This document shows, one piece after another, positions 27,426-51,536 of a DNA stretch of 64,000 bases. The notes under the pieces are model-generated. The model was not told where the DNA came from and did no database searches. It worked only from the letters and a program-made list of their open reading frames with translations. This stretch comes from Antedon mediterranea. Its lineage: Eukaryota; Echinodermata; Crinoidea; Comatulida; Antedonidae. The position numbers were made by a program, and so were the translations under genes. The stretch spans positions 18,626,001 to 18,690,000 of the forward strand of contig NC_092671.1 of the NCBI RefSeq assembly GCF_964355755.1, given 5' to 3'. The number at the start of each line of letters is the position of its first letter. Within the stretch, counting starts at the first letter, position 1.

Positions 27426-29033
27426 ATGCCGCTTTCTCCATTCAAGATAATATATAATATACTGTTGGTATTTTATTGTTCGCCTAATTTTGTATTGTAT
27501 TGTAGCAGCATCTACATCACAGAGGGACCAACAGACAAACGTGTGGGGATTGGGTCAAATGTGGTATTGAAATGCCTTGTTAGTGATATAAATGGTGAAC
27601 ATGTTAGATGGATGTTCACACGAGATAAAACAACTGAAACTATAAGTCAGGATCGAGCTTTATGGGCGACTCTGTCTGCAGAAAAGAAACTGCGATTTTC
27701 GATCGATGCGAGCGTTCAAAATCAGTTTAATTTGGAAATTGAACGAGTTTTATATTCTGACAGAGGTACGTATGAATGTGTGTTTATGCGTTATGATAAA
27801 CAATGGATTGGACAATCTTTTAAACCTTCCGCTGTAGCTAACTTGACGGTACTCAAAGAGCCGTCTCGTGATTCTCCTGTATGTACTATTATTAAGGATG
27901 GTATCGCTCTTTCTATAACTGGACAAACTCCTACACTGCAAGGCGATGGCCATGTTCAGTTCCAATGCTCTTCTCATTCACATGGCTACACCACTCCAAA
28001 TATAACATTGCTGTTATCAGGGGTAGCATATAATGGAACTAATAATGAAACATCTGTATATGATTTAAAAACAATAACAAGTAATGCTGTTTCGCCAGAA
28101 CAAGGAATGACTGTGAGATGTATTCTTGAAAGTGAGGCTCTTCAAGAAATGAGAACATGTCAATTGATGCCTGAAGTCCAACCAGTTATCAATATACAAC
28201 CAAACAATGTAACTATGAACGTTGGTCATGAAGTAAAATTTAATTGTATTGCATCCGGTTTTAGCAGTGAAATACATAAATATAATTGGAAAACATCTCC
28301 AGAATTATCTGGTAGTGATACCAACCAAGTAAACTCATCTTCCCTCTATATAACATTACCAGATAAACCATGTAATTGTTTTTATCATGTAAGTTGTGAA
28401 GTTCAGCATTTAAATGAAACGTATACTGCTTCCACAGTAATCCATGTTAATAATAAACCTATGAAGACAAGTGAAGTCAATACCAACCAATCAAATAACA
28501 ATTTAGCCGTCTTATCATTACTATTTTTAATATTAATATTAGTGATATCATTCTTTATTTGGAAAAGACACAAGAAACAAAAACTAAATCGGTTCAAAGG
28601 TGCTTTACGTTATACAATTGAACCGAGTACAAATTCGAGTACAAATGTGCCTATACGGTCTAGCAGTGGTAATAATTCGCCTGGTGACGAGTTTGAAAAA
28701 CCTGTTACTCGAAGCAGTTCCATTAAAGAAAGCCTATATGCAAAGGTTCGGAAGTTGAGGAAATCTCAGGATTTTAGCATTCGTCCTGTCAATAGTAGTA
28801 ACACCAATGACGACAGAGTTCAAGAAACAGTAAACGCAATTATTGAGAATCATAGATTGTCATCTGAAATTGATCCCCGATCGTCGTTTATTGATGAAAA
28901 TCTAACAAGTATAGATGAAGATTCTCTCCCTAAAAACAATGGTGTCCATGAAGCCGTGACTGAAGATCTTTCTAATGAAGTGTCCACTGCGCATATCTAC
29001 GAGAATGTAGTAATCAAGTTAGAAGAAAATTAA
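27426..29033 (+). CDS. Intronless type I membrane receptor, three Ig-like domains, tyrosine-motif tail (Ig receptor 1)
   Basis: 535 aa in one exon. A hydrophobic leader (about 1-28) is followed by a V-type Ig domain (C50, W62, SDRGTYEC ending at C118), a second domain with four cysteines (C153, C181, C232, C245), a third Ig domain (C274, C324), a membrane span (about 360-379) and a 155-residue tail. The tail has one ITIM-type motif, SLYAKV (Y438), and ends near HIYENV (Y525), a YxN motif suited to Grb2-type SH2 domains. Domain 2 shares the ESEALQEMRTC pattern with the receptors at 36.5 and 39.5 kb. Unlike those, the tail lacks the LDL-ITIM plus terminal tyrosine pair. Ligand is unknown. AATAAA at 29083-29088 follows. 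Confidence 0.85.
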   Translation: MPLSPFKIIYNILLVFYCSPNFVLYCSSIYITEGPTDKRVGIGSNVVLKCLVSDINGEHVRWMFTRDKTTETISQDRALWATLSAEKKLRFSIDASVQNQFNLEIERVLYSDRGTYECVFMRYDKQWIGQSFKPSAVANLTVLKEPSRDSPVCTIIKDGIALSITGQTPTLQGDGHVQFQCSSHSHGYTTPNITLLLSGVAYNGTNNETSVYDLKTITSNAVSPEQGMTVRCILESEALQEMRTCQLMPEVQPVINIQPNNVTMNVGHEVKFNCIASGFSSEIHKYNWKTSPELSGSDTNQVNSSSLYITLPDKPCNCFYHVSCEVQHLNETYTASTVIHVNNKPMKTSEVNTNQSNNNLAVLSLLFLILILVISFFIWKRHKKQKLNRFKGALRYTIEPSTNSSTNVPIRSSSGNNSPGDEFEKPVTRSSSIKESLYAKVRKLRKSQDFSIRPVNSSNTNDDRVQETVNAIIENHRLSSEIDPRSSFIDENLTSIDEDSLPKNNGVHEAVTEDLSNEVSTAHIYENVVIKLEEN

Positions 29034-32000: not shown

Positions 32001-32225
32001 TGCGCCCCTCTCTCTGACGTCACTCAAAGTTACAATGCAATGATGCATGTCGGTGGTGGTGTTGGTTTTTCTTACGAGAAGACAGTTCTGATTGGCGGAA
32101 TAGTCCGGTACACATAACTTGCAGCCAATGATGATCGACGTAAATATTTATACGTACGTACGTACGGACGGCGAATAGGCCTATTTAAAATTATTACATA
32201 ATCAATGTAATTTGTATATTTATAG
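29034..32225. other. Intergenic region after Ig receptor 1
   Basis: Very AT-rich with no recognised exon. The GC-richer part at about 31860-32180 (TGCGCGCTTGCGCAG, TGACGTCA, a TACGTACGTACGTACG run) probably holds the promoter and untranslated first exon(s) of the gene at 32226-34428; the start codon of that gene could not be placed. Confidence 0.4.
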
Positions 32226-34428: not shown

Positions 34429-35335
34429 AAGGCAGTAGTAGCTCTGAAGTTCTAGAAAAAGAAACAAAAGAAGAGGCAGTGGCAGAAGCTGAATAATCCC
34501 ATTCATAAACTGGATAGATACGACACAATCACAGAAGAAAAACACCTCAAAACATTAGTTATGGAATCATGTTTAAAATGCAGTCTACCTCATTATTGAT
34601 TTTTTAACGGATATTAATTTTCTGGATGCATTTTAACTTGGATATAATAAAACAAGCTTATATTTTTAATATCGATCAGTTTAATTTCATTGTTTGTTTT
34701 TATAGGTTATCTTAATTTAATATCTGAATAATAATAATGACAATAATACTATAAGATAAATGGCCAACTGAGTATAAAGCAAACATAGGAGGATGAAGGT
34801 ATGGGAAGTGGAGGTTACAGGAACGCATACTTAATTGTGTATTTTAATTTTAGATAACACATCAGTAATACAAAACCATTTCTTGCAAAATAAGTTTCTA
34901 AAATAGTATAATTGTCATTTCCGGAGTGATTGCACCACGCTAAGTCCTATGTACGTCCACAATTATGTTTAAGCCCACAAATGGCCTGATAAACGACTCA
35001 CACATAAGCTTAAAAAGTAAAAAGTAAAGCTCTGTCTGCACTATTAAACTTTATGTGATGTGCTCACAAATGGACATGATGATGTCATATCAGTACCGTA
35101 TTTGGGCATATCACATCACACTTTTTGAAACTAGTTTGATAGTGTAGACAGAGTATAAAAGAAGATGCTCATTCTATTTATCGGGTTACCTTTTCCATCT
35201 TAACATTCACCACTTCAAATTATGCGTTTGTATGGTGTTAGAGAAATAATTTTGATTCTAAAAATAATCGCATGAATTACTACCGAGGGCCAGACATATT
35301 GCCGTTGCTTTTGCTTTGCTTTCGATGACACCAGC
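34429..35335. other. 3' UTR and intergenic DNA after the modular gene
   Basis: No exon is recognised. It contains the poly(A) signal at 34646-34651 and the MITE at 35030-35153. Confidence 0.4.
35030..35153. mobile_element. Short MITE, CTCTGTCTACACTATCAAAC termini
   Basis: The left end CTCTGTCTGCACTATTAAAC and the inverted right end CTCTGTCTACACTATCAAAC enclose 124 bp with no open frame. A related copy is at 22993-23121. Confidence 0.65.
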
Positions 35336-35642
35336 TCAGATGTTGTCTTCAACTTCAAAGAAACTTATAATGTGAATGATTATACATTGTTTTGGAAACA
35401 CGAATATCGGTATCTTACCAGGGGTGACTGGTTGTTTCAATCTGCCAGCAAATACTATGTTTCCACTTAAGTTCATCTTACCGTTTAGCGATCTCAAACG
35501 TACAACTTTCTGATGCAGGATTATACGAGTGCCTGTTATGGTTATAATACTGTAGAAACAATGCATACTCTTTCCAGTAAAATCTGGTCACTACTAAACT
35601 AACACTCCTCCCAGCCACCATCTGCAATTTTTCCTCTGTGTT
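35336..35642 (+). pseudogene. Relic of an Ig V domain from the neighbouring receptor family
   Basis: Translation in broken frames gives DVVFNFKE, then TLFWKHEY, then NVQLSDAGLYEC, then CYGYN and QPPSA. This matches, in order, the V domain of the receptors at 36.5 and 39.5 kb (DVIFKC, LIW, NVQITDAGDYEC, YGY, QPPSA). At DNA level CCACCATCTGCAA and CCTC-GTGTTT are shared with 39947-39975. The first domain cysteine has become Phe, stops interrupt the frame, and it ends at a T-run. It is a truncated former gene directly upstream of receptor 2. Confidence 0.7.
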
Positions 35643-36497
35643 TTTTTTTTTTAAGCAATCGTAAGCGATTTTTAAAGCGGATTTAATCTAATCAGATCTA
35701 AGAATAATGTGGTGATTTAATTATTTATCATTACATAAAGTTGAACATCATCATCATCATTAACTACTTTTGCATCAAATTTTGTTTTATTTTATTACTA
35801 AAATATATTCATTTCATAATGGGTTTCATTATATTCATATCTCAACATATTCATTTCTCCACATATTCATTTCTTAACCCATTTATTCGCATATTAACTT
35901 CCAGGGAAATGTGAAACTAGAGAGTAATTTCATCGGCATATAAGTGGCAGGTGATACTGATCTTTTTGTCTTGTTTGGTGAGAAATAATGCTGTTTCACT
36001 ATTAATTTTTATGGAAATTAATTTATAAACAACCTTTTTAACTATTTTCCATAGACTATTAATGTTTAGGCCATATTCAATAAAAGAAAAGGTGTTCTTA
36101 TTTATTCCCATAAGGTACAGTGTATTGCTCTTTTACAATACATAGTAAATGTTCCAATTAAAACATTACCAATAGCATACTTTCGTTTCAGTTTTTCCAA
36201 TTGAAAGTAAATTTATCCTCATGTTGTAGGTAAAGAATTATTTAATTGTGCATGTAGGCGTGTGGCATAGAAACCTGTCTCCATCCTATTGGCGGAGATA
36301 GAAAAAATATTATGAGGAAATAATTGCCGGTAACCATTTGCAGGCGAGGTAAGATCCATACAGAAGTACATGACTGATGAACCCGGTAATGCGTGGTAAA
36401 AGATTAGCTATAAGATAGTTAGGTAACTAACAACAGGAAATAGTTTCACGGAGGCTTCACATAACACTCTCAGCCAAGCCTTTGGAGCACGGTAAAT

Positions 36498-38051
36498 ATG
36501 TTTGAATTATGGACTATGGAATTTATCAAGCTATTTAAATTAGCTGTATATTCTTATATAATAATAATAACGTTAAGATGTACTGTAAACAGTCAGACAC
36601 TCATTTCTGGCCCATCAGACGTTCGAGCCGCAGTTGGTACAGATGTAATCTTTAAGTGCTCCGCAGCTAATATCGAGTCACCGTCCGCTCTAATCTGGAG
36701 AGATTTAAATGACATTGGTTATATTATTAGCTTTGGTGAAAATACATTCAGTTCTCAAATTTACTCAATAGTTGTTTCTGATGGTGGTTTATCATATGAT
36801 TTGAAGATCACAGACGTACAGATCAATAATGCTGGAGAATATGAGTGCATATATGGGTATCGTAATGAAAACAATAGGTATTCAATCACACGTTGGACAA
36901 CACCTGCTACGGCTACATTAACAGTACTTCAACCACCATCTCCAACTTCTCCTCGGTGTTTGCTATCTCGCAATGAGGCCTTGATTTCAGCTGAGGCACC
37001 ATTATACGTAGGAGAATCCATCAGATTACAGTGTATTTCAGAGGGTCATGGAAGTACATATCCAGCACTCGACATCACGGTATCTAATATCAGTGTTGCT
37101 GCGAGTATTATACTTAACAAATATAACTACAGGGAAGCAGAATCTGAAGACATAATGGTCGAAAATTATGATACCGAATTGAAATGTTATCTTAGTAGCG
37201 AAGCTTTGGAAGAAACAAGAACCTGTACAATAACGCTTAATGTACTTCTTCCTGAAGTGGAAATATATCCAAGTATGCAATCTGTGCAAGAGTCAACTGA
37301 CGTATATTTCCAATGTTGTGCAAGTAACTTTAAGACAACTAATCTGCATTATGAATGGCAGATATCCCCATATGTTCCTGGAGACATCTTTAATTCTAAA
37401 GATTCAATTTTAAACATTACTGACATTTCTCTCAATAACACTTTACTCGAAAAACAAATCTTTAATATCACGTGTTTAGTAACAGAAGATGGTAGGATTT
37501 GGAATGCTGCTACCACTTTGTCCATAACGCGGATTGAGCTACCATCAACTAACCACAACAGTAATAACATTGATGGACATACTAAAACTAATACCACCAG
37601 CGAATCTGAAAATTCAATAGTTGGAGTACTTATAGGAACGGTCGTCGTTGCTATATTTGTCGTATTATTAATTGTTGTATTTGTTTTTAATCGCCAAAAA
37701 TTAAACAGCATAATATTCAGAAATAAAACTATAAACATATCAGTTGATAACACACAATTATATTCGGATGTCCAAAACATGAATACAATTACAACCAATG
37801 CAGATAAAGGGAGAGACTCGTGTGATAATACTGTTTACTATTCATCAGTGCCTAATGATGCCGACAATTACGATAATGTTTGCAACATTAATGAAAATGA
37901 TGAAGCTCTGTATGAGAACAGACCTTTCACACGAGACGTCACAGAACTTAACGTAGAGGGCCTCAACTATGCTGTGTTGGATCTTCAAGAATCGCCATGT
38001 GATATTATAAACACCAATCATACCACCACATATGCCACATTGGAAAATTAA
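36498..38051 (+). CDS. Intronless ITIM-bearing Ig receptor 2
   Basis: 517 aa in one exon. The true start may be the ATG at 36516 (residue 7), because MEFIKLFKLAVYSYIII aligns with the start of the paralogue at 39528. Order: leader (about 7-32), V domain (C54, W67, NAGEYEC to C117), four-cysteine domain (C154, C179, C230, C243), third Ig domain (C273, C326), membrane span (about 375-398), tail. Tail tyrosines: LYSDV (Y422), VYYSSV (Y448, ITIM), NYDNV (Y458), LYENR (Y472), LNYAVLDL (Y491, strong ITIM) and TTYATL (Y512) five residues from the end. No charged residue is seen in the membrane span, so it does not resemble adaptor-paired activating forms. A role as inhibitory receptor through SH2 phosphatases is inferred from motifs only. 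Confidence 0.9.
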   Translation: MFELWTMEFIKLFKLAVYSYIIIITLRCTVNSQTLISGPSDVRAAVGTDVIFKCSAANIESPSALIWRDLNDIGYIISFGENTFSSQIYSIVVSDGGLSYDLKITDVQINNAGEYECIYGYRNENNRYSITRWTTPATATLTVLQPPSPTSPRCLLSRNEALISAEAPLYVGESIRLQCISEGHGSTYPALDITVSNISVAASIILNKYNYREAESEDIMVENYDTELKCYLSSEALEETRTCTITLNVLLPEVEIYPSMQSVQESTDVYFQCCASNFKTTNLHYEWQISPYVPGDIFNSKDSILNITDISLNNTLLEKQIFNITCLVTEDGRIWNAATTLSITRIELPSTNHNSNNIDGHTKTNTTSESENSIVGVLIGTVVVAIFVVLLIVVFVFNRQKLNSIIFRNKTINISVDNTQLYSDVQNMNTITTNADKGRDSCDNTVYYSSVPNDADNYDNVCNINENDEALYENRPFTRDVTELNVEGLNYAVLDLQESPCDIINTNHTTTYATLEN

Positions 38052-39527
38052 CTAACACTAACAAAATAGTTGAGTTAATTATAATTCAAGTAATTGTAAA
38101 TAGTTAAACAAGGGACCTTATGCAGTTTATACTTCATGTAGTAATAATGGATATTGGCACGACGCGGTATTTTGAACGATACGTGCCATCAAGTCTAGTT
38201 TAGGCTCGAACGACAATTTAGATATTTGATAAAAAGATAGACATTTTGGCAAACATGGCGTGGCGTTGTAAACTTGAGTAGGCCTACTGTTAAGGAAAAA
38301 ATCACATTAGGACCCTTAATTGGGTATCCGCTGAATAGGGTTTGGATCTAGGCCTAGTTAACGTTTTAACTTCGTTCATCAATGGGAAATTGCCTCCTTG
38401 ATAGATGTGTCCCCAGAGGATGAACTCTACTGTACTATAACAACATAAAACACATTGGAGACTTTGGAGTAAGTGTATGAGTATGTTTCAGCATCGACAA
38501 CCATTAGACAGTGTATACCACGTTAAAACACCCCTATTCGGTGTAAATCGTTTAACCTAGATTCATTTTTATAAATAATTGTCTAGCGAAACTTAATTAA
38601 TTTTACATTAGGTGATTAAAATCAGTACCGGAAGTAAGTATGTACTAACTTTCTATAGAATTGAGTAAAGATTCTAGAAGTTACGCGCGAGTTACCATTT
38701 TTTGCCCTTAAAAAGATATCAGTTATACGTGTATTATACTTTCCATTCTCAGTTTTTGTTATTATTATACGAATAGTAGGCCTAGTCCTTCATAAGTGTT
38801 TTTTATTTCAATTGAATTAAATAGAATGAGATTGATTAAAATACATATTGTATTAACGTTAATTATTATAATTATTTCATTCACGCCCAATGAGTCTTGT
38901 AGTAACTTATTACATTATTGGCATGTGGAGTGTGTGCGCACATGCAGGTTGATATATTTTGGAAAATATATTTTCTATCTGAATATAGTTGAATGTAGGT
39001 TTAATTGTATATGCCTAGCATTGTATATAGCCGTTCATTCATTGCTTTATGTTAAGGGTTTTTCATAGAATAAAACATAGACGGGGAAATTTGAAATTCT
39101 TCTCCTTTTCATTTCTATGAGAATTGTATTCGGCATATATTATATTATAACCGTTCGATTCCGTTGCGAATAATGTTAATATTATGATCTTATAGATTTG
39201 GTACTTAATATGTGTAAATATATTATACTTCCGGAAACTTTCCCTTATTCTATAAATTGGCGGAGGCGTAATTTTGCAGGAAGTAATCTGGTTTTGAATT
39301 ACTTTCTCAACACTGTATATTCCTTGTCATGCTGTGTATAGACGTGACTGAAACCACGGTAACGGATTTTGTGGTGAAATACTATATTATCTACTTTAAA
39401 TAGTTGTAGATCTATTCTCAACCATCAGCAACTATGCAGGGCTCTGAATGAAGCTATAACGCGTAAATATAAATTTCACGACCAAGCCATTGAAACACGT
39501 CGGTGACTATACTTTCAATTTTTGATT
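38052..39527. other. Spacer between receptors 2 and 3
   Basis: No recognised exon. It contains a short cysteine-rich open frame (38826-39068), listed separately with low confidence, and the putative promoter of receptor 3. Confidence 0.4.
38826..39068 (+). CDS. Possible small secreted cysteine-rich peptide
   Basis: An 80-codon frame starts MRLIKIHIVLTLIIIIISF, which looks like a signal peptide, followed by about 60 residues with seven cysteines (SCSN, VECVRTC, VECRFNCIC). It lies between two immune-type receptors. The DNA is AT-rich and Ile codons are common by chance, and no family is recognised, so it may not be a gene. Confidence 0.2.
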   Translation: MRLIKIHIVLTLIIIIISFTPNESCSNLLHYWHVECVRTCRLIYFGKYIFYLNIVECRFNCICLALYIAVHSLLYVKGFS

Positions 39528-41036
39528 ATGGAGTTTGTCAGACTATTTAAAACAGTTGCATATGCTTATATAATAATCTCGTTAATTCCTATAACTGTAA
39601 GTAGTCAATTACTACTCTCTGGTCCTGAAGATGTTCGAGCTGTAGTTGGTACAGATGTAATCTTCAAGTGCTCGGCTTATAATATTGTGTCACCGAATAC
39701 TCTGATTTGGACTGATTTAAAATATGATAACTATATTATAAGCTTTGGTGAAAGTACATTCGGTTCTAAAGTTTACTCAATAATTGTTTCTGGTGGTGGT
39801 TCATACGATTTAAAGATCACTAACGTACAGATCACTGATGCTGGAGACTATGAGTGCACATACGGTTATTACGATTATGAACGTTTATTTTACATCTATT
39901 CATCTTTTTCAACACCTGCTACAGCTACGTTAACAGTACTTCAACCACCATCTGCAACTTCACCTCGGTGTTTGCTATCTCACAATGAGACCGTAATTCC
40001 AGCTGAGACACCATTATACGTTGGAGAATCCATCAGATTACAGTGTATTTCGGAAGGCCATGGAAGTACATATCCAATACTTGGCGTCACGGTATCTGAT
40101 ATTAATGTTGCTGCGAGTACTATACTTCGTGGTTATAACTACACAGCAGTGGAATCCGTAGCCATAACAGTCGGAAATTATGATACCGAATTGAAATGCC
40201 ATCTTAGCAGCGAAGCTTTGGAAGAAACAAGAACCTGTACAATAACGCTTAATGTACTTCATCCTGAAGTGGAAATATATCCAAGTATGCCATCTGTACA
40301 AGAGTTGACTGACGTAAAATTTCAATGTTCTATAAGTAACTTCAAGACAACTAATCTACAGTATGAATGGCAGATCTCGCCATATGTTCCTGGGGACATT
40401 TTTTCTCAAACAGATTCAATTTTTAAAATTACTGACATTTCTCTCAATAACAATTTACTCGAAAAACAAATATTTCACATTGTGTGCTTCGTAAGAGAGA
40501 ATGGAAAGATGTGGAATGCATCTACCAATTTGTCAGTAACGCAGGTAAATACACCTATCACTAATTTTAACAATGATACCAGCAGCGAATCTGAAAAGTC
40601 AGTAGTTGGAATAATTCTAGGAACGGTCGTCGTTGCTATAGTTGTCATACTAATAATAATTGTCTCTGTTCTTAATCGGCAAAAATTAAACAGCATTATA
40701 TCCAGGAATAAAACTATAAACGCATCAGTCAATGACACGCCCTTATATTCTGATGTTCAAAACATGAATACAATTACACCCAATGCAGAGGAAGGGGGAG
40801 ACTCGTGTGATAATTCTGTTTGTTATTCATCAGTGCCTAATGATGCCAACAATTACGATAATGTTTGCAACATAAATGAAAATGATGAAGCTCTATATGA
40901 GAACAGACCTTTCACACAATACGTCACAGAACTTAACGTAGAGGGCCTTAACTATGCTGTGTTGGATCTTCAGGAAACATCACGTGATATAATAAGCACC
41001 AATCATACCACTACATATGCTACACTAGAACATTGA
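39528..41036 (+). CDS. Intronless ITIM-bearing Ig receptor 3 (paralogue of receptor 2)
   Basis: 502 aa from the ATG at 39528 (the frame extends six bases upstream without an ATG). Same plan as receptor 2: leader (1-26), V domain (C48, W61, DAGDYEC to C110), four-cysteine domain (C148, C173, C224, C237), third Ig domain (C267, C320), membrane span (about 358-381) and tail. Tail tyrosines: LYSDV (Y407), VCYSSV (Y433), NYDNV (Y443), LYENR (Y457), LNYAVLDL (Y476, ITIM) and TTYATL (Y497). Long stretches, including LEETRTCTITLNVL and GTVVVAI, are the same in both proteins. The V domain differs most, mainly in the loops. AATAAA at 41077-41082 is 41 bp after the stop. A recent tandem duplicate. Confidence 0.9.
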   Translation: MEFVRLFKTVAYAYIIISLIPITVSSQLLLSGPEDVRAVVGTDVIFKCSAYNIVSPNTLIWTDLKYDNYIISFGESTFGSKVYSIIVSGGGSYDLKITNVQITDAGDYECTYGYYDYERLFYIYSSFSTPATATLTVLQPPSATSPRCLLSHNETVIPAETPLYVGESIRLQCISEGHGSTYPILGVTVSDINVAASTILRGYNYTAVESVAITVGNYDTELKCHLSSEALEETRTCTITLNVLHPEVEIYPSMPSVQELTDVKFQCSISNFKTTNLQYEWQISPYVPGDIFSQTDSIFKITDISLNNNLLEKQIFHIVCFVRENGKMWNASTNLSVTQVNTPITNFNNDTSSESEKSVVGIILGTVVVAIVVILIIIVSVLNRQKLNSIISRNKTINASVNDTPLYSDVQNMNTITPNAEEGGDSCDNSVCYSSVPNDANNYDNVCNINENDEALYENRPFTQYVTELNVEGLNYAVLDLQETSRDIISTNHTTTYATLEH

Positions 41037-42898
41037 CAAACAGAACAGTTTAATTAGCAATAATTCAAGTAATATTAATAAATGTTTAGATCGCCTTGTA
41101 GTAAAAAGTATAGTGGCAAGATTTAAACCCGAGTTTTTTTTAAAGAGATAAAATTGAACAATACAATTTCCATTTATATCATATTGTTTTGCTTTGCTTA
41201 TGACAGTGTTAAGAATTACAGTACTTTATATTGTATTTTGTAGTTTGTTGTTTCCATTTTGTTTCATATTTATTGTAGGGGCCCTCATGAAACAAGCTTT
41301 TCTAATAAAGGTCCCAGTTATTCCTAACTGAATAAATGTGGAATGAATTGAATTGAAAAAATATATTATGTGTTTTTTGTTGTATTACTCATATGAGCGA
41401 CCTTGTTTCGATGATGTCGAAATAATTGAAATAGCCAATTATCTGCATCAACATCAATAAACTTTTCCCAACTCAGTAGTTATTGTCTTGTTTATGTTAG
41501 ACCACCAGTCGGCTTTCCGTTTTTTGTCTGAAAATAGTTTACGAGCGCAAATAGTATACGTATGAAACGCCATATGTGCCAAAAAAATTGTATTAATATT
41601 AAGTCAAAACTCTGTCTAGAACCTAGGCTACATCATAAAAAACAAAACTTGACGCCTCCTGTTGCACCTCGTCCACTTCATGAGCTCCTTTCTGAAGCAA
41701 GAGAAATCAAATACTTTACGCTGTCCGTTTAGGCCTACTTACTGTTAAAAACAATTTAATGATCGTGCATTTGTATTTATCATCTTTATTATATCTTGCT
41801 GCACAGTCTTATACCCATTGGATGTTAGTGACATTATTTTTTTAATTGTTACATGAAAAAGCAAGGTAAATTTTCGAAACACTGTTTATATGTTTTACCA
41901 AATAAGATGAATTGCATAATGCAGTTTGGATTCTGACAACATTAACGCTTACTCTAACGCTAAGCCGACTTGGTTATCCAAACAAAGGCAAGTACAGAAC
42001 GAAGATATATCGGAAGTGCTTACTTTATAGGTTGACAGTAATTTTCCGGTATCGATCTGGTGGGTCATGGTTATACGTTAACAATCTATAATTATTTAAA
42101 ATGTTAATACAATAAACATTTTTAAATGTTAAAACATTGTTTTGTAATCACATAATACTGTAAACAAAATGAAGTTAATGATAATTGTTATGTATCAATG
42201 TTACGTTACAGTTTGTCCTTTTATTTATCGAGGCTCAGGGTAATGAACCGCAGTTCACTGATTCGAACCCGGGTTAACGACCAAGGCGTAACCTTGTACG
42301 TCAGTTTAAAAGTGCTGACATAAACTTTCACTTTCTCTATTTTTCATATGATCTTGATTCACAGAATTTGAGAATTTGTTGAGCTTTGCAAACTTCATTA
42401 CCATTAACCATTATAAAACCAATACTTTTATTACAAACAACACCTATGATCAAGTATCACAAACCTCATAATGTAAAAATATGGCTATTTTTAGGGCAGT
42501 TTGGGGTATTTTAAATCGGTGAATAATCATCAATATGTTAATCAATATTTTGGGTTTGACTGATTTCTTTCCACTTACAAAATCATAACCAAATATACTT
42601 TTTTTTAAAGGTGTGGCTGGTGAGCAAATACGTTCAAAGAAGGGACTACCCACCGGAAAAAAATTGAATTGAAAAATAAGATATCAAAATAAATATAGTT
42701 GTATACATAGTACATACAAATACTGAAACTAATTATATATACAGAGACATGCTTTATATTTGAAACTAGAGGCTGTACGTTTACGTTTCAATACGTGTAA
42801 ACAAAATGAAAAACGTTACATATTCGAAACAGTTATAGACACTAACCAATTGATTGATGTTTATTATTTTTTTAGTATGTCAGAAGACATAGAGAATG
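41037..42898. other. Spacer between the convergent receptors 3 and 4
   Basis: No exon is recognised. About 41271-41360 ends in GAATTGAATTG repeats after CTGAATAAATGTGG and may be a retroelement 3' tail. A lone B-box-like GGTTCGAATC on the minus strand near 42270 has no matching A box. Confidence 0.4.
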
Positions 42899-44518
42899 TC
42901 AGAGACTTACTTCAGAGTAAGTTACTTTGCAACAAGTATCATGGATTAATGTTCCAGTGTATGGTAGATCCAGTTCGGCATATTTAATTCTCTCTGCTGT
43001 ACGCGAGGATCTACATTTCATCTCAACTGCAAATTCAGGTGCGTTGCATGTTAACGAAAAGTCTTCGATTGTTTCAGATGGATCTACATTTTCGTAAACA
43101 GTATCTCTTTCTTCACTCACTTCTACCTTAAGATTCGTATACGTTGGCAGGCTTAACTTCGGTTCGCTTGGTGGACTTTCAGCGTACATTTTGCGACGTA
43201 TTTTAACTGACGACGACAAGGTAGATCTATTTGGTGCTGTATATTCTTCTATTGTGTTTTCTTTACCTGATTGATAATCGTGTGGTAAATTAAGTTTGTC
43301 TATTGTGTTTGCTCGTCTTGCTTTGGAATAATTTCGAGGGTTACGATTTACTGTATTACCATGAATTGCTATCGGGTACTCCCTCGCTGTTAGTACTCTC
43401 CTGGATGACGATCTTTTATTAAAAACTCTGCCTTGTTTAGAATTTCTTTTATGAATAAAACATATCGTACATACAATAAAAATTAGAAGAAGCCCTAATG
43501 TACAGCTTATAATTATTGGTAGAACCACTACACCAGATTTTTTATTGACGTATAGAATAGTTGTTGCATTTTGAATTGTTCCACCTCCTGTGACGGTACA
43601 CGTCACTTTAGTGCCATTATACTCAGCGTGAACGTCAGGAATTCTTAATGTTGATGATGTCAATGTAAGTTCTAACAAAGATGAATATTCTGGATAGAAA
43701 TGCCATCTATATTTGAGTTGATTATTCCTAAAGTCGGTTGCGCTACATTTGAGTACCGCAGTCTTTCCCGTTTGTATCATAGGATACTGTGGTGTAAGGG
43801 TAACCTTACCGGGAGGAAGCAAATCTAATTGACACGTTTCAAGCATTCCATCGTCAATACGAAAGCGACATTGAAATGTTGTTTCATTTTCAATGACGTA
43901 GTGACCAGTTGTTTGTACTAACCTTCCTTCTACATAGTTGGGACTAGTCTTAACTTTTTTTCCATTGCGAAGAAGCTTTAACTTTGTATGTGTATTTACA
44001 TGAGAAGTTGTTGTACATGTAAACCTGACTGAGTTCCCGACAAAGAATGTAAGCCCTTCGTCAACTTCAATATTACACTGAACACCTTTCTCTGTTGGTG
44101 AAAGAACTTTCAAGAAAGCTGCAGTATTAGACGCTAACTGAACTGTATTCCCCTTTTCTGTAAAATAGACACATTCATATTTTCCACTATCACTTGCCTG
44201 AGCGTTTACAATCCTTAGATCATAACTTCGATCTCCCGAAACACCGGGTAGGATGGAGAAACGATTACTCTGATCGGAGTTTATCGTATCCAGAATTTCC
44301 CAGTTACTACTGAGATAGTCATTTATCGTAAAACTGTACCATTGGATAAAGTCGCTGTCTTTCCGGCCGTCAACATTACATGAGAGTGTGGTATCAGATC
44401 CTACCCGGATTGTTTGATTGTCTGGCCCTTTTTTCAGGTACAATCCATTGATATTTAAATATAGTGAAAATAAAATCATTAAAAACATACTGAAGTTATA
44501 ACATACATACAGCACCAT
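42899..44518 (-). CDS. Intronless ITIM/ITSM-bearing Ig receptor 4
   Basis: 539 aa in one exon, opposite in orientation to receptors 1-3. Leader (about 1-25), V domain (C47, W60, DSGKYEC to C116), four-cysteine domain (C148, C168, C217, C229), third Ig domain (C258, W272, C307), membrane span (about 329-355) and a basic then tyrosine-rich tail. Motifs: TVYENV (Y475, fits ITSM TxYxxV), IKYAELDL (Y513, ITIM) and VTYSEV (Y534, ITIM) four residues from the end. Further tyrosines are EYPIAI (Y381), YAES (Y445) and TYTNL (Y460). The last two motifs are 21 residues apart, as in receptors 2 and 3, although the ectodomain is far diverged. TTTATT at 42860-42865 (AATAAA on the coding strand) may be the poly(A) signal. 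Confidence 0.9.
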   Translation of the reverse strand: MVLYVCYNFSMFLMILFSLYLNINGLYLKKGPDNQTIRVGSDTTLSCNVDGRKDSDFIQWYSFTINDYLSSNWEILDTINSDQSNRFSILPGVSGDRSYDLRIVNAQASDSGKYECVYFTEKGNTVQLASNTAAFLKVLSPTEKGVQCNIEVDEGLTFFVGNSVRFTCTTTSHVNTHTKLKLLRNGKKVKTSPNYVEGRLVQTTGHYVIENETTFQCRFRIDDGMLETCQLDLLPPGKVTLTPQYPMIQTGKTAVLKCSATDFRNNQLKYRWHFYPEYSSLLELTLTSSTLRIPDVHAEYNGTKVTCTVTGGGTIQNATTILYVNKKSGVVVLPIIISCTLGLLLIFIVCTICFIHKRNSKQGRVFNKRSSSRRVLTAREYPIAIHGNTVNRNPRNYSKARRANTIDKLNLPHDYQSGKENTIEEYTAPNRSTLSSSVKIRRKMYAESPPSEPKLSLPTYTNLKVEVSEERDTVYENVDPSETIEDFSLTCNAPEFAVEMKCRSSRTAERIKYAELDLPYTGTLIHDTCCKVTYSEVSL

Positions 44519-44924
44519 CGTGAATCCTTGCTAGAAATGTTCGTTTTTAGAGTGACACGGACAGTGACTAATATGCTAGGGTTTGATTATTTCCGTTTTG
44601 TGGATGTATTATGATTGTCGTAATCTTTAAAAATATACCAAACCCAACAACATCACCTTAATTTAAATTGGACCTAACTCAACTTTAGTAAATTAGTCAC
44701 TACCCGTTGAAGGCCTACTCAAACCCATTTTCTCATAGCGTAGAGAGCGTAGTTGAACCGCCTGGATGTGTGATATTATGATTTGCATTCAATTCATAAG
44801 TCCTAAAACGATACGGTACTGTTTGTAATTCATCATTGTAATTGGATTGAACTAAACAAAAACAAACTATATTTAGGTTCTACAGAACAAAAAGTGGTAC
44901 TGGTTTTACGTGTTTATTTTAAAG

Positions 44925-45670
44925 GCCATGTGCGGGCAAAACATTTCTATTGATTAGAACATTCCAATAATTATCAATCTATAGTTTCCCCCATGTTCCA
45001 TAATTTTTTGGATTTTATTTGTCTTACATGAGTTTGTTGAAAATAAGGAATTTATTATCAGTGGGTGTAGTTCAAATTACACATTAAAATCGCTATTCTT
45101 TTGTACAAAATTTTGTAAATAGAGAGGCATTTTTAAAGCAAGGCCAACAGCCATAAGTCGCGTGCTCTCAGAAAAAAATGAACTTTCAACAAGTAATGTA
45201 CTTTAAAACTTTTCTGTACATCAAAACAGTTCATAAAGTACAGAAAAGCGATAAAACGCATAGTGATAGCGGACCGACAGACAGACCGACAGACCGAAAG
45301 ACCGACCGACCGACATAGTGAACTATAGAGTCTATAGAGAATATGAAAAATAAACTTGAATTTTACGTTTCTGGTAATTTTATTCAACTTCAGAGTTTTA
45401 TTTTTATGCTATAGCAAAAGTTATCCACCGTATATATACCATCTTTTTTCACCTTCTAAGGAGTCACCAGACATGTTATCGCATTAGGTTAAACTACCTA
45501 ACTACTGAAAAAAGGTCTTCCTGGTTTTTATAGCAGAATTTTGCCAAATTTTGTATTTGACCATTTTAAGGGAAATTCATGTTTTTCGTCTTGATTTCTG
45601 TTATAAATATTTGATTTATGTACAATTAACCCGATATTATTTAAAAAATTCATGCTTGTACCTGAGCTTT
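44925..45670 (+). repeat. Dispersed repeat, copy A (with nested insertion)
   Basis: Matches 54619-55190 in reverse orientation. Shared blocks include GCGGGCAAAACATTTCTATT, CACCTTCTA, GGAGTCACCAGACATGTTAT, TTAGGTTAAACTACCTAACT and AAAATTTTGTATTTG-like segments. About 45137-45320 is absent from copy B and holds a (GACC/GACA)n tail, so another element has inserted here. Confidence 0.75.
45260..45325 (+). repeat. GACC/GACA microsatellite tail
   Basis: A run of GACC and GACA tetranucleotides between ACGCATAGTGATAGCG and CATAGTGAACTATAGAGTC. The same arrangement, inverted, lies at 57165-57235, so this is the end of a transposable element family. Confidence 0.7.
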
Positions 45671-45915
45671 AATGATTAGATTGGGTCATTTTACCCACAT
45701 CATTATTTTCTTTTCATTCTAGAAAGACTAATGGATGTTTATAGTTGTGAAAAAAAAATACATTACAAATACAGATTCATAAAATTGGCTATAGTAGTAA
45801 CTGATTTGCGGAAAAACATTTTTAGATTACAAATACAAATAGGCCTATACATTTTAGAATTCAAAATGTTAATATTATAAAAAAATACAATTTAAAATAT
45901 AAGCAATAATTAATT

Positions 45916-48249
45916 TCAAATATGATTTACCAATCTGTCCCGTGGACAGTTAGGTGACATGAGAGCAGTTTCCAGCCTAGTCCAAAATAAGGCCTGCCTT
46001 TCTGGATGTTTATGATGCCATCGTATATATGTTTTCTCCTTAAGAGTTTTGTGTAAAAGAGTTGGCATGTCTTTTACTGACACCTTTTCAAGAAGCAGTA
46101 CAATCAAGATATTCTCATGATTGTCAAACATCCGCATACGTGCCATCTCAAGCTCAAAATTACACCATTCACTCTCTGCAAAGCTTTTCGAAACTACCAA
46201 TACTACTTTTTGGCTGTTTTTTATAGCGTTTACAATATTGTTTGCAATACTATCTCCTCCAAGAAAATCTCGGTAATCAACGCATATTTTAAAATTACGT
46301 TGGGTCTCTAATGCAGGATGTAACACATTGAGAACCCAATTTTGATCTTTGCTGTTGTAAGCTATAAACGCATCATAGGGTTTATCTGCATTAGGTGGTC
46401 CTTCAATTGCAAATTGTTCGTATTGTTTATGAAGACGTCGTTGTTGAATCCAGAGCTGTACATCAGATCTCATGTAAAATAACAGACAAACTCCGATTGC
46501 CAAAAAGGTAGCCACGGCTAAACAAGTAAGTACTATTACCACAACTTTTTTACACGCTAACTTTCCAATATCTATTGTTTCAAGAGACTGAAGATGGGTT
46601 GAACTTACGTTAAGGCATTCCATATCAATGTGTGCTTTAGTTTCCTCCATCCAATGCTTAAGCCACACTATATTGCAAGTACACTTAAAAGTATTGTTTT
46701 TTAGATTTAGATAAGATACCTTTTCAAGTTTTGCTAATCCGGTGTTTCTTGAAACAGTAGAAAGACGATTATTACTAAAATCGATATAACGTAGTTTTTT
46801 GTGTGAATTTGAAAATACATTTTTTTGTATTTTTTCGATTCCGTTAGAGGATAAATTTAGAAGAATAAGCGACGAAAGATCTTTGAAAGTTGTTTTAAAT
46901 ACTTCCGTTAAATTGTTTGAGGACATAAGAATTTTGTTTAGCTTGTTATTGTTTATAAAGATGTCTTTCTCAATTGTAGATATTCCGCAATGTGATACAT
47001 CTAACTTTTCCAGAGATGACAGATCGGCAAACCATGTTTTACACATCTTATGAAGTTTGCTGTTTGCACGTAGAGAAAAAAAACTCAGCTTTCTTAAACC
47101 ATGAAATGCATCGTCTGAAATGTTTTCACCAACCAATTCGTTATTAGCCAAGTCTAATTTTTCCAACAACTGAAGCTCTTTAAATGTGTTTTCATGTAAT
47201 GAATGTATATCATTACTGATTAGGTATAGTTCACGTAGATTCATGTACTTGGAAAATGTGTAAACCTCGAGTGATTTTATACCACAGTATGAAATATTCA
47301 ATATGTCTAAGTTCTCCAAACCTTGAAACCAGTAATTTTGCAGTCTACCTAAGTACGTGTTGTGAGATAAATCGAGAAATTTTAGTTTTCTTAAACCAAG
47401 AAATGAATCAACTTCGATCGTTTGAATCCCACAATATGACACATCCAATATTTCTAGGGATAAAAGATCGGCAAACCATTTTTCACGTATCTTTATAAGT
47501 TTAGGGTTTCCACGTAGAGAAAAAACTTTCAGACTTTTTAAACCTCGAAATGCCTCATCGGAAATGTCTTCACCAACTAATTGATTATAAGAAAATTGAA
47601 GTTTTTCTAAAAGAATAACGGTGCTAAATGTGTTCGCGTGTAAAACATGTATTGGATTAAGTGCCAGATCAATTGATTTCAACTGTTTTAGATACTTAAA
47701 AGTGTTCTCTCCAAGACTGTAAATTTTACAAGACGATATATCTAATATTTCCAGAGACACAAGATCCTTAAACCAGTAATAGTTTAACTCAATCAGATCG
47801 TTATTGGATAGATCCAACTTCTTTAGTTTCGACAAACCTCGAAACGCATCCATTTCAATGTATCCAGATGTTAGAAAGTTACTAGACATTTTCAAAATGT
47901 ATAGATCTTGCCTTGTTATAAAGGAATTGTTCCTTATAGATTTAATATCGTTCATATCTAAGTAATAAACATTAGCATCAGTTGGAACCTTACTTTGTGA
48001 TGGAATAGCTTGTAATTGTTTATTCTTGCAGTTCACGACATGGCTATACACGTTGTTGTTGTTGTTGTTGGTTGGGCAATATGTGCAATTACATTGCTCT
48101 GGGCATCGTAGTTCACTTACAGGCTGTGTTCTTGCATACGGCTTTTCCTTGTAACATGCCGGCACTTGATATTCACAAGAAGACTCAAGAAGAACAGAAC
48201 TCAAGAACTCAAGAATATACAGACACAATATCTTAAGATTCATCTTCAT
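45916..48249 (-). CDS. Toll-like receptor (LRR-TM-TIR), intronless
   Basis: 777 aa in one exon, starting at ATG 48249 (MKMNLKILCLYILEFL). Leader, a cysteine-rich LRRNT-like segment (about 45-75), about 18 leucine-rich repeats, an LRRCT (CTCNIVWLKHWMEETKAHID then MEC and LAC, about 520-566), a membrane span (about 569-593) and a TIR domain (about 622-764). Box 1 is YDAFIAYN, the BB loop is YRDFLGGDSI and box 3 includes FW. TLRs sense microbial products and signal through MyD88/TRIF-type adaptors. The single LRRCT is the vertebrate-like arrangement. Oddities: the conserved BB-loop proline (RDxxPG) is Gly664, and a 148-residue block of LRRs is duplicated. Codons for Asn6 (near residue 62) form a TTG microsatellite on the plus strand. 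Confidence 0.95.
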   Translation of the reverse strand: MKMNLKILCLYILEFLSSVLLESSCEYQVPACYKEKPYARTQPVSELRCPEQCNCTYCPTNNNNNNVYSHVVNCKNKQLQAIPSQSKVPTDANVYYLDMNDIKSIRNNSFITRQDLYILKMSSNFLTSGYIEMDAFRGLSKLKKLDLSNNDLIELNYYWFKDLVSLEILDISSCKIYSLGENTFKYLKQLKSIDLALNPIHVLHANTFSTVILLEKLQFSYNQLVGEDISDEAFRGLKSLKVFSLRGNPKLIKIREKWFADLLSLEILDVSYCGIQTIEVDSFLGLRKLKFLDLSHNTYLGRLQNYWFQGLENLDILNISYCGIKSLEVYTFSKYMNLRELYLISNDIHSLHENTFKELQLLEKLDLANNELVGENISDDAFHGLRKLSFFSLRANSKLHKMCKTWFADLSSLEKLDVSHCGISTIEKDIFINNNKLNKILMSSNNLTEVFKTTFKDLSSLILLNLSSNGIEKIQKNVFSNSHKKLRYIDFSNNRLSTVSRNTGLAKLEKVSYLNLKNNTFKCTCNIVWLKHWMEETKAHIDMECLNVSSTHLQSLETIDIGKLACKKVVVIVLTCLAVATFLAIGVCLLFYMRSDVQLWIQQRRLHKQYEQFAIEGPPNADKPYDAFIAYNSKDQNWVLNVLHPALETQRNFKICVDYRDFLGGDSIANNIVNAIKNSQKVVLVVSKSFAESEWCNFELEMARMRMFDNHENILIVLLLEKVSVKDMPTLLHKTLKEKTYIRWHHKHPERQALFWTRLETALMSPNCPRDRLVNHI

Positions 48250-50087
48250 GAGCACGTTCAGACTGCAAATAATGCAACAATATTCTAATAATCATTTGCA
48301 ATTTGGAAGGTTTTTTTTGTTCTGTTCTGTTATAAATCAGCTAATGCTTTTATGTATATAGGCATACTAAAATGATTTAGAACAAACAACAACAAATTAT
48401 TTAGTAATAGGCTTACCTGTTGATTTTGTTATTCCTTGCAGTCCTAAAGTTTCAGAAGACGTGTATAGTTCATTCATGATAAGAATTAAAGACAAAACAG
48501 GGCCTTATGCAAAACCTTAGTGTTATTCAATTTATTGTCACGAGGTAGCATATTATTTTAAATACAATACTTCAGGGTAAAATCCGTTAATGACGTAATC
48601 TACTATTTCTATCAATAGAAAAACAAATACATAATCGTTTAATGCACTATATACCTTACTTGAATACTATACAACAAATATATATTATATATATTTATAT
48701 CGTTAGATATCTTGATAAGATTACAATTAGATAAAATTCTATAAATACAGTAAAGCATTATCCTCTGGCATTAGAAGGGCATAGAGCGACCCAATGTGTG
48801 TTTCCGGTCGCCAAACTATCACGGTAAAGCCGGTACTCGAGGAAGATATACGCTATGGTTTGGAAACTATTATTATGCCGTGACATGTTTGTATCATTTG
48901 TGTTACTAACCCTTATCTATATTATAAGAGAGAGTGTGTGCGTTAATTCGTTGTACACATAGGATATCAAAATGACTGGAAATGTACTGAGAAGGTTTAA
49001 ATGACATTTGAACCGCGCTAGGGCATGGGAGGTGGTAGTAATGGGGTATCAAAAGGAATTTGTACTGGTAAGGTTTTAAACTACAAACCCGTCCTGGAGT
49101 TGGGGCGGGAGTTACACGCTTTGGAATCATTTACAATTTATAAGAAAGGTAAAAGAAATTTATAAATTAGGAATATGTATAAATCCTAAGGCAAATTACT
49201 GGAGTGGCTGGATCTCAATGGAGATACAAAAAAAAAGCGAAAAGCTAAATCAAAACGAAAGTAAACAGCCAGAAAAGTTGGCAGAGCTTTCGGGCAACAC
49301 TAGCCCTTCATCAGTGCAAGTGAAGGAATTTGGATAACGTCATAGTATAAAGCTGGCAAGGGCTTATATATGTATCATTTAAAAATGTATCTGCTGTAGC
49401 TAACTTCTTTGGTAATGCCTATATTATATATCAAACACGGAGGATGGCACTTGGTACTTGGTTTGTTTCCTCCTGAATCTTCCAGGAGGGAAATTAACTA
49501 GGAGGTCTCAGTGAAGTGGTGGTACTGTTTAATTGGTTTTGACAAGGTGCTTGCTAAAATCTTTGTTTGCATGTTTAGTTACGTTAACAATAGACTGCGA
49601 TAGGGTATTCCATGTTCTAATAGATAATAGGGAGGGAAAAAAGATTGCTGGTAGACTGCGGATGAAGTTTGTGGAACTATTAACTGTTTGCTGTGTCTTC
49701 TTCTGGCCCTTTGACTTTTTAGTTTCAGGATCTCTGTACTGTCTTTGCATATAGTAATATCTTGGTTGATAATTTTAAAAGGCCAACTTATTAGCACAAC
49801 CTATGTACTACCTTAAAGGTAAAGGAACACTAGTATTACTATATTTGAAAACCCCGTCTGAAAGTAATATAAGGCCTACTATTTATATCTTTAAAAACAG
49901 GTCTAAACCGCTATCATTTAGAAATTATTTATTTTCTATCCTGCTAATTTATTGTTGTTAGCAATCTCGACTCGTGATGTTTCAAGCATTACGGATATTG
50001 ATTATCGTTATTACTTCCTTCACAGAACAGTGTTGTTATTTTAGTTAGTTCAGTTTACTTACAGTTATAGACCTAATTTATAACAAT
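48250..50087. other. Divergent spacer between the TLR and receptor 5
   Basis: No exon is recognised; both flanking genes point away, so promoters of both lie here. About 49215-49345 (AGCTTTCGGGCAACACTAGC then CCTTCATCAG) resembles the 3' end of a retroelement. Confidence 0.4.
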
Positions 50088-51536
50088 ATGATACGAATAC
50101 AATTGTTCTTTCTACTTTTTAGTATTGTAAAACACGCCAAATTTGCAACGATTGCCAATGGACCAATGAACACTACTGAAATTAAAGGAGAGACAGTGGA
50201 GCTAAAATGTGATGCAGACTATGTATTCCGAAGCTCAAATGTCGTTTGGTTTCACAATAGCAGTGGTACAAAAATCAGCAAAAACTACGATGTGTTGTTT
50301 AATGAATCTACTAAATCGGAAAGATATTCAATCCAAAACAGTGGTGGGTATGCTAATAAAGTATATAACCTTCAAATAACGAACTTTTCATCAGAAGACG
50401 CAGGTTTGTACTCATGTTCTATAGTAAAGCAGAATGATGAGCAGATTGTTGATTCAACTTGGGCAGTGTTATCTATAAATCCTCCTGGCCACATGACACC
50501 ACCAACATCTTCCCTTACCTGCAGTATTGATACAATGGATGCAGAAATTGGTGATGAAATCATGATTACCTGTCAATGCGAAGGCGGTGACCCTCCACCT
50601 TTACTGAGCTTATTGATAGACGGAGAAGAAGAAACAGAATCAATTTATACACAAAACCAAGTTCATACCTTAACCAGAAGTATAAGCTTAACAGAAAATC
50701 ATATCGATGTGTTATTTAAGTGTAAGATGGTAAGCGCAGCACTTATCAGTCCAGGTTATTGTTCCATCAAGCCATTGCCAGTTGTTTCAATTGTTCCATT
50801 TCAACCATCTGTCAGAGAGAACGAAACCCTGGAATTAAGTTGCCAAACTACCAGTGATGTATTCAATCAAGAATTTGAATGGTTAATTGATAGGTTGTCT
50901 TGCAGAACTGTATCGCTTGATAACTCAAAAGTTTCAAACATCCTCATCATTTATAATGTACCAATGTCATTCAATGACTGCAGTGTAACTTGTGTAGTGA
51001 AATTAATTGGACGTGCTACTGTCACGATTAGAGTCATGTCTAGAATCGTGAAAACGACCGAGATGCCTGTTACACTTTCCACGATGTCCACTGATGAAAT
51101 GTATGGAAAAACTATTCCAATAGCCATTGAGTCTGTAATTGTTATTGCAAGTTGTTTAACTGTGTTTATACTTATAATGACAATTGTGTGTGTTCTCAGA
51201 CGAAAGATTAACAATAAAAAATTGTCCAACCAACAAAATGTTAATGTTCAATCAAAAAATGAGGATTTATATGTAGATACAACAAACGAAAATATTCCCA
51301 ATAATCTAGAAAACACTTCGCCAGTTTCTCCAGAGTCAACTAATTCAGAGGACCAATCACTTTGCAGCGGTATCGTATACGAAAACGTACAGTTAGACAA
51401 TGGCGATTCTGAAAATGCAGCTGCTGAATGTGCCCCTCTACGTAGATTAAACTATGTTGAATTGGATTTAAGGTCTTCTTCAGTAGTTCATAATAATACG
51501 CAACCTACGTTGTACTCGGATATTGTTTTATCTTAG
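50088..51536 (+). CDS. Intronless ITIM/ITSM-bearing Ig receptor 5
   Basis: 482 aa in one exon. Leader (1-20), V domain (C41, W54, DAGLYSC to C110), four-cysteine domain (C145, C162 with an extra C164, C212, C225), third Ig domain (C252, W265, C302), membrane span (about 344-370) and a short tail. Motifs: DLYVD (Y395), IVYENV (Y431, ITIM), LNYVELDL (Y456, ITIM) and TLYSDI (Y476, fits ITSM TxYxx(V/I)) four residues before the last Ser. Spacing between the last two is 20. The tail is the most compact of the family and keeps only the shared core. AATAAA at 51857-51862 follows. The ectodomain differs widely from receptors 2 and 3. Confidence 0.9.
   Translation: MIRIQLFFLLFSIVKHAKFATIANGPMNTTEIKGETVELKCDADYVFRSSNVVWFHNSSGTKISKNYDVLFNESTKSERYSIQNSGGYANKVYNLQITNFSSEDAGLYSCSIVKQNDEQIVDSTWAVLSINPPGHMTPPTSSLTCSIDTMDAEIGDEIMITCQCEGGDPPPLLSLLIDGEEETESIYTQNQVHTLTRSISLTENHIDVLFKCKMVSAALISPGYCSIKPLPVVSIVPFQPSVRENETLELSCQTTSDVFNQEFEWLIDRLSCRTVSLDNSKVSNILIIYNVPMSFNDCSVTCVVKLIGRATVTIRVMSRIVKTTEMPVTLSTMSTDEMYGKTIPIAIESVIVIASCLTVFILIMTIVCVLRRKINNKKLSNQQNVNVQSKNEDLYVDTTNENIPNNLENTSPVSPESTNSEDQSLCSGIVYENVQLDNGDSENAAAECAPLRRLNYVELDLRSSSVVHNNTQPTLYSDIVLS

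Follow-up and report, generated by a model that had tools for sequence, protein, structure and literature searches.

Does an echinoderm possess its own family of inhibitory immunoglobulin (Ig) receptors? The question is raised by positions 27426–51536 of the 64,000-nucleotide stretch of crinoid DNA analysed here (the window), where an earlier note, made from the letters alone, had described a cluster of five one-exon Ig receptors. All five open reading frames (ORFs), named R1 to R5, were found intact at those places. We consider it rather likely that they constitute an undescribed crinoid family of type I, single-exon members of the Ig superfamily (IgSF), which bear immunoreceptor tyrosine-based inhibitory motifs (ITIMs) and act mainly as inhibitors via SH2 phosphatases.

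Five receptors with a common domain plan

With a minimum size of 200 amino acids and an ATG start, only six ORFs exist in the span, the five Ig receptors and one Toll-like receptor (TLR). The receptor ORFs are single-exon and 482–539 codons long, and a relic of a sixth member lies between R1 and R2.

27426–29033, plus strand: R1, one-exon Ig receptor of 535 amino acids (ORF, Pfam)
about 35336–35641, plus strand: relic of a broken sixth member, V-domain pieces with stops (homology)
36498–38051, plus strand: R2, one-exon Ig receptor of 517 amino acids (ORF, Pfam)
39528–41036, plus strand: R3, one-exon Ig receptor of 502 amino acids (ORF, Pfam)
42899–44518, minus strand: R4, one-exon Ig receptor of 539 amino acids (ORF, Pfam, AlphaFold model)
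50088–51536, plus strand: R5, one-exon Ig receptor of 482 amino acids (ORF, Pfam)

The alignment with R3 suggests that R2 starts at its second ATG, at 36516. A hidden Markov model built from the five sequences and run on six-frame pieces recovered the five ORFs and the relic (E = 3.7e-5), the next best piece having an E-value of 0.55. The five are homologous and diverging, as had been proposed: R2 and R3 are 73.9% identical, the remaining nine pairs 19.3–26.5%, and the five-way alignment has 31 invariant columns, including eight cysteines and two tryptophans of the Ig domains.

The plan foreseen in the earlier note, with a leader, a V-type Ig domain, a four-cysteine Ig-like domain, a third Ig domain, a membrane span and a tail with tyrosine motifs, is seen in all five receptors. 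Pfam Ig_3 is above its cut-off in each of them, and V-set is above or at its cut-off in R1, R3, R4, and R5 and just under it in R2. In R2 and R3 the V-domain stretch alone passes the Pfam cut-off, so that homology and cysteines are the basis for calling their later Ig domains. The second domain (D2) contains four cysteines in every receptor, with a spacing of 17–28, 49–51, and 12–13.

27855–28202, plus strand: second, four-cysteine Ig-like domain of R1
36930–37271, plus strand: second, four-cysteine Ig-like domain of R2
39942–40283, plus strand: second, four-cysteine Ig-like domain of R3
43790–44101, minus strand: second, four-cysteine Ig-like domain of R4
50481–50798, plus strand: second, four-cysteine Ig-like domain of R5, with one extra cysteine

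As for the set to which this domain belongs (C1 versus C2/I), a modest model from the five sequences conflicts with the sequence profile; the fourth cysteine of R4 is out of register in the alignment behind that model and in register in the whole-protein alignment. For R4, AlphaFold (mean pLDDT 57.9) predicts three beta domains, poorly modelled around residues ~71–95, then a transmembrane (TM) helix at ~333–360 and a disordered tail. A 21-residue hydrophobic span is present in all five receptors, and since none of these spans contains an acidic or basic residue, nothing points to coupling with a charged activating adaptor.

Tyrosine motifs in the cytoplasmic tails

The proposal that the tails carry SH2-binding-type tyrosine motifs is strengthened by the motif counts. 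The ITIM-type motif [ILVS]xYxx[ILV] occurs once in the tail of R1 and twice in each of R2 to R5, so that every tail has at least one. Pooled over the five tails, the nine matches compare with a shuffled mean of 1.7 and were reached in none of 5000 shuffles; for the wider Yxx[ILVM], 19 matches compare with a mean of 6.2 (0/5000). With R3 left out, the counts are 7 versus 1.3 (2/5000) and 14 versus 4.8 (0/5000), respectively. Yxx[ILVM] surrounds 19 of the 31 tail tyrosines versus 17 of the 70 ectodomain tyrosines, and the ectodomains do hold four matches of the ITIM type or the switch-motif (ITSM) type. The five proteins accordingly combine what marks an ITIM-bearing IgSF receptor, a type I TM protein with an Ig ectodomain and cytoplasmic [ILVS]xYxx[ILV] beyond chance.

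The tails of R2 to R5 end in two [ILVST]xYxx[ILV] motifs that are 20–21 residues apart, with the tyrosine of the last motif 5–6 residues from the C-terminus. All motifs of these distal pairs have a hydrophobic residue or Thr at Y-2 and Leu, Ile, or Val at Y+3. The pairs are LNYAVL (37962–37979) and TTYATL (38025–38042) in R2, LNYAVL (40947–40964) and TTYATL (41010–41027) in R3, IKYAEL (42971–42988) and VTYSEV (42908–42925) in R4, and LNYVEL (51447–51464) and TLYSDI (51507–51524) in R5; R4 also has YTNL and YENV, and R5 also has IVYENV. Among shuffled tails of R2 to R5 (20,000 trials each), 0.045–0.105% had a pair 18–25 residues apart ending within 10 residues of the C-terminus, a strict criterion chosen after the data had been seen. 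By the loose criterion of any pair 15–35 residues apart, which 1.1–3.3% of the shuffles satisfy, four of the five tails and none of the five ectodomains are positive; R2 and R3 are not independent in these pair counts. The tail of R1 holds SLYAKV (28731–28748), a strict ITIM, and HIYENV (28992–29009), 87 residues apart. YxN sites exist in all five tails, none of which matches the strict activation motif (ITAM) pattern Yxx[LI]x(6-12)Yxx[LI] or the hemITAM pattern.

Divergence of R2 and R3

Of the parts compared, R2 and R3 are most alike in the tail, which is 83.5% identical and has the lowest ratio of nonsynonymous to synonymous divergence (dN/dS 0.30; like the other dN/dS values for this pair, given without confidence limits); all five of its Yxx-hydrophobic tyrosines are kept. 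This pattern indicates that the tail of the pair is probably under selective constraint. Among the Ig-like domains, divergence is greatest in the V domain (67.3% identity versus 77.6% and 80.6%; dN/dS 0.50), and the protein divergence of the signal peptide, stalk, and TM segment is greater than that of the V domain. The synonymous divergence (dS) is 0.50 in the V domain versus 0.23–0.29 in D2, the third domain, and the tail (Fisher p 0.012, from rounded counts). Gene conversion between R2 and R3 (36498–41036) is weakly hinted at by this difference, and no more firmly, because dS in the parts outside the Fisher test is mixed: 0.59 in the signal peptide, 0.53 in the stalk, and 0.15 in the TM segment.

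The alignment score of the upstream flanks was reached by 68 of 200 shuffles over 500 nt and by 9 of 200 over 200 nt; that of the downstream flanks was reached by 1 of 200 and 0 of 200, respectively. The default blastn match between the two genes extends from 36474 to 38094 and from 39482 to 41073. The pair may have arisen by retrocopy or by tandem copy.

Proposed mode of action

We propose that a ligand is bound by the V-type domain, which stands atop the two membrane-proximal Ig-like domains, and that a Src-family kinase would then phosphorylate the tail. The paired membrane-distal tyrosines of R2 to R5 would then dock a phosphatase with two SH2 domains, of the SHP-2 type, and the YxN sites could recruit a Grb2-type adaptor. 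Inhibition via SH2 phosphatases being probable from the motifs, the receptors would chiefly send signals that inhibit or set thresholds in immune cells, for example coelomocytes, in which we infer the genes to be expressed. R1 is probably a divergent member that signals differently.

If the tails do recruit SHP-2-type phosphatases, the vertebrate-like plan of a paired distal ITIM/ITSM-like tail exists in crinoids, and the history of immune 'brakes', with tunicates and cnidarians already in it, would extend to echinoderms. The single exon allows whole genes to be cloned from genomic DNA, which makes the age of such receptors directly testable.

Relatives in sequence and structure

In the protein set, a search with R4 scored 7826 candidates and gave no match at E up to 0.001. 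At E up to 1, two proteins matched when the five-member profile was run on the 7994 candidates sharing most words. One is a gecko CD22-like protein (4.2e-5), whose tail carries YENV and YxxL motifs as a likeness to CD22 and the Siglecs; the other is the multi-Ig protein P0002 (0.011). The search requires shared exact words, by which distant crinoid relatives could escape it, and R4 was the only receptor searched singly; R1, R2, R3, and R5 are most likely absent from that set as well. The absence of R4 may reflect a lack of transcript or homology support in the annotation. Since R4 at least is missing although another gene of the species is included, families like this one may go unnoticed elsewhere.

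Chains of 4030 distinct sequences in the PDB match the profile at E up to 0.01. SIRP-alpha (2wng) aligns in one stretch over all three domains (E = 2.4e-10, rank 7 of the best 60), and PVR also aligns over the ectodomain in one stretch (E = 2.3e-8). With the R4 model, the whole-model fold matches are tied among immune, neural, and antibody chains: DIP-theta, Rst, and nectin-like 4 have Z values tied with SIRP-gamma and PD-L1. SIRP-alpha ranks third by E-value in the Foldseek list, with a low TM-score.

Comparison with known receptor families

The SIRPs have three Ig domains with the V domain first, C1-set second and third domains, and an ITIM tail, and a J-like [FW]GxG in the G strand of the V domain is a hallmark of SIRP and NITR. 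The receptors R1 to R5 resemble SIRP in the V-first three-domain plan, the ITIM tail, and the alignment of SIRP-alpha to the whole ectodomain profile, but their second domain has four cysteines. The V domain of a teleost NITR is among the better PDB sequence matches, but three Ig-like domains are present here. Membership in either family was rejected, as no [FW]GxG occurs in residues 91–160 of the five receptors. Siglecs are marked by a conserved Arg on the F strand of the V domain and by a Siglec-type placement of cysteines. Here, the F-strand cysteine is canonical and the YxC is followed by Val, Ile, Thr, Val, and Ser in R1 to R5, respectively, instead of Arg, and Siglec membership was likewise rejected on these features. 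PVR and the nectins share the plan of a V domain with two further Ig domains; the tandem distal ITIM/ITSM-like pair sets the present receptors apart, and the second-domain profile reaches PVR at E 0.24 and nectin-2 at E 1.2 only.

Sushi modules have four cysteines, as does the middle module here. No Pfam Sushi match was found at E up to 1 with the whole proteins or up to 10 with D2 alone, under HMMER filters that drop most weak matches. This bears on the nearest published analogue found among the literature matches listed, FcoR of the tunicate Botryllus, a protein of 520–610 amino acids with a V-type Ig domain, a sushi module, two C2 Ig domains, a TM segment, and a tail with ITIM, hemITAM, or Yxx[ILV] motifs, encoded at 53 loci in polymorphic haplotypes of the fuhc locus (PMC12065747). 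The receptors share with FcoR the type I topology, a similar length, a leading V-type domain with more Ig domains behind it, and a clustered multigene family in an invertebrate deuterostome, and their long tails correspond through ITIM and Yxx[ILV]. In contrast, FcoR has four ectodomain modules including the sushi, is alternatively spliced, and is paired with the fester genes, whereas three Ig-like modules and one-exon ORFs are found here. Membership in FcoR was rejected for want of a Pfam sushi match between the V and later Ig domains.

In the case of Hydractinia, ITIM/ITAM motifs are described on alr candidates (PMC12065747), and the likeness, by description only, lies in clustered IgSF genes with such tails; the Alr family, however, is cnidarian and concerned with allorecognition. 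The amphioxus receptor BbLcLRR, which has ITIM-like tyrosines, is phosphorylated by Lck and inhibits signalling in Jurkat cells, binds SHIP1 and, to a lesser extent, SHP1/2; sea urchin Lck and amphioxus PTPN11 are also given in that source (PMC8211107). It, too, comes from an invertebrate deuterostome, but its ectodomain consists of leucine-rich repeats (LRRs) instead of Ig domains. Among invertebrate IgSF immune receptors, oyster CgIgIT2, which signals through ERK, differs in having five Ig domains, a TM segment, and an ITAM (PMC11999971), and oyster CgSiglec-1 in having two I-set Ig domains (reviews PMC11999971, PMC5877582).

The general kind is thus already known from ITIM-bearing IgSF clusters in a tunicate and from the cnidarian alr candidates (PMC12065747), and the crinoid version with this build is apparently undescribed. 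No echinoderm ITIM IgSF family was found among the literature matches listed, in a search outside which most subscription papers lie. The earlier note knew of no family with this exact build, and neither these matches nor the protein set contradict it.

Alternative explanations

Several observations weigh against an inhibitory ITIM family. R1 lacks a tandem motif pair by the strict and the loose criterion; Yxx-hydrophobic sites double as endocytic signals, and YxN sites can activate. The gecko CD22-like match aligns to 30% of the query with an identity of 24%, and the best PDB profile matches are the neural Robo, Dpr2, and SYG-2 or LRIG1 instead of immune receptors. Between R2 and R3, dN/dS is 0.50 for the whole protein and 1.43 for the TM segment (25 codons). 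R4 is absent from the protein set although its angiotensin-converting enzyme (ACE)-like neighbour from the same species is present, as is expected of a gene without transcript support.

The last point would fit unexpressed or recently silenced copies whose ORFs are kept by youth, as would the broken sixth copy nearby. We regard this as very improbable, given five intact ORFs, Ig cysteines that survive at ~25% identity between copies, distal motifs that survive in four tails, and the low dN/dS of the R2/R3 tail. The neural matches raise the question of adhesion or neural IgSF proteins of the nectin/PVR, DIP/Dpr, or SYG/Neph type, whose tail motifs would serve endocytosis (YxxPhi) or adaptor binding instead of inhibition. 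The leading place of Robo, Dpr2, and SYG-2, the alignment of PVR over the ectodomain, and the tied folds of DIP-theta, Rst, and nectin-like 4 speak for such proteins, but the residues at Y-2 and Y+3, the C-terminal spacing of the pair in four of the five tails, and the multigene cluster favour ITIM receptors, and we consider the adhesion alternative unlikely. Activating receptors with loose ITAM-like or Grb2/PI3K/PLC docking sites, as in CgIgIT2 with its ERK signalling (PMC11999971), would account for the YxN sites of all five tails and for an ITAM-like spacing in R2, R3, and R4, where at least one motif has Val at +3. The failure of every tail to match the strict ITAM pattern and the conserved distal pair, which fits ITIM/ITSM, make this quite improbable.

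Allorecognition or self-recognition receptors of the Alr/FcoR type would use the same tail logic on a polymorphic self ligand, possibly with mixed inhibitory and activating members. The build and polymorphic haplotypes of FcoR and the motifs of the alr candidates (PMC12065747) point this way, as does the V domain being the most diverged Ig-like domain of R2/R3. Against it, the dN/dS of the V domain stands at 0.50, three other parts (signal peptide, stalk, and TM segment) diverge more in protein, and a Pfam sushi match is missing. Feather stars are, in addition, solitary animals. Taken together, allorecognition seems to us rather unlikely, and the ITIM-type inhibitory family remains the preferred interpretation.

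The neighbouring TLR and the flanking ACE-like gene

The TLR that had been placed between the fourth and fifth receptors is a one-exon ORF in that position.

45916–48249, minus strand: Toll-like receptor, one-exon ORF of 777 amino acids (ORF, Pfam)

It shows the LRR ectodomain (LRR_8, 6.4e-64), TM segment (a hydrophobic span ahead of the TIR domain, read by eye), and TIR domain (8.9e-23) of a TLR, with LRRNT and LRRCT below the Pfam cut-off. NCBIfam, a bacterial and archaeal library, gave only matches below the cut-off for the TLR and none at E up to 0.01 for the receptors. The LRR coding sequence is internally duplicated (46982–47652, 74–76% identical).

R4 and the TLR are co-oriented and ~1.4 kb apart; the TLR and R5 lie head to head, ~1.8 kb apart. 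This arrangement may permit shared regulation of the TLR with R4 or R5. In the 400 nt upstream of the six genes, a promoter-pattern scan found a TATA pattern before R3 only and no NF-kB pattern before any gene. It is speculation, from proximity, that the receptors set TLR thresholds. We find it doubtful that the ITIM family arose independently of those of vertebrates, tunicates, and cnidarians and was kept beside the TLR for activating and inhibitory co-regulation, in which R5 and the TLR could share a promoter region; if true, an early-branching living class of echinoderms would have a functional counterpart to the vertebrate receptor complexes.

Exons of a peptidase resembling ACE lie on the minus strand to the right of the cluster. 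Joined into one query, these pieces matched the angiotensin-converting enzyme-like protein of Antedon mediterranea at 99% over 391 amino acids; the figure was 88% for Anneissia japonica and 60–63% for the six named echinoderm entries ranked after it. The source had been read from the letters as an invertebrate deuterostome, and the Antedon match confirms a crinoid, either A. mediterranea itself or a species very near to it. The window covers residues 32–610 of the Antedon protein, has no match for residues 1–31, and is identical in the exon interiors, the mismatches lying only where alignments overrun exon edges into introns. A repeat is common to the R4/TLR gap (44922–45672) and the ACE-like gene region (54617–55189), with 87–89% identity.

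Other features of the window

A 5S-rRNA-like sequence (Rfam, 74 bits) followed by a tRNA-like sequence, seen by eye, at 18471–18760 on the plus strand is perhaps a 5S-headed short interspersed nuclear element; it is the only copy that blastn detects in the window at E up to 1e-3, and a tRNA scan of the window was empty. A GATA zinc-finger ORF lies at 21760–22976 on the plus strand, and the ORF after it resembles, we presume, GATAD1. Tetraspanin-like exons under the Pfam cut-off occur at 13038–13905 on the minus strand. A tandem duplication of ~1.4 kb (14727–17546) is 96% identical, and part of it recurs at 57260–57745 with 84% identity. An inverted repeat pair of ~520 nt (8213–8723 and 10247–10766) is also 96% identical.

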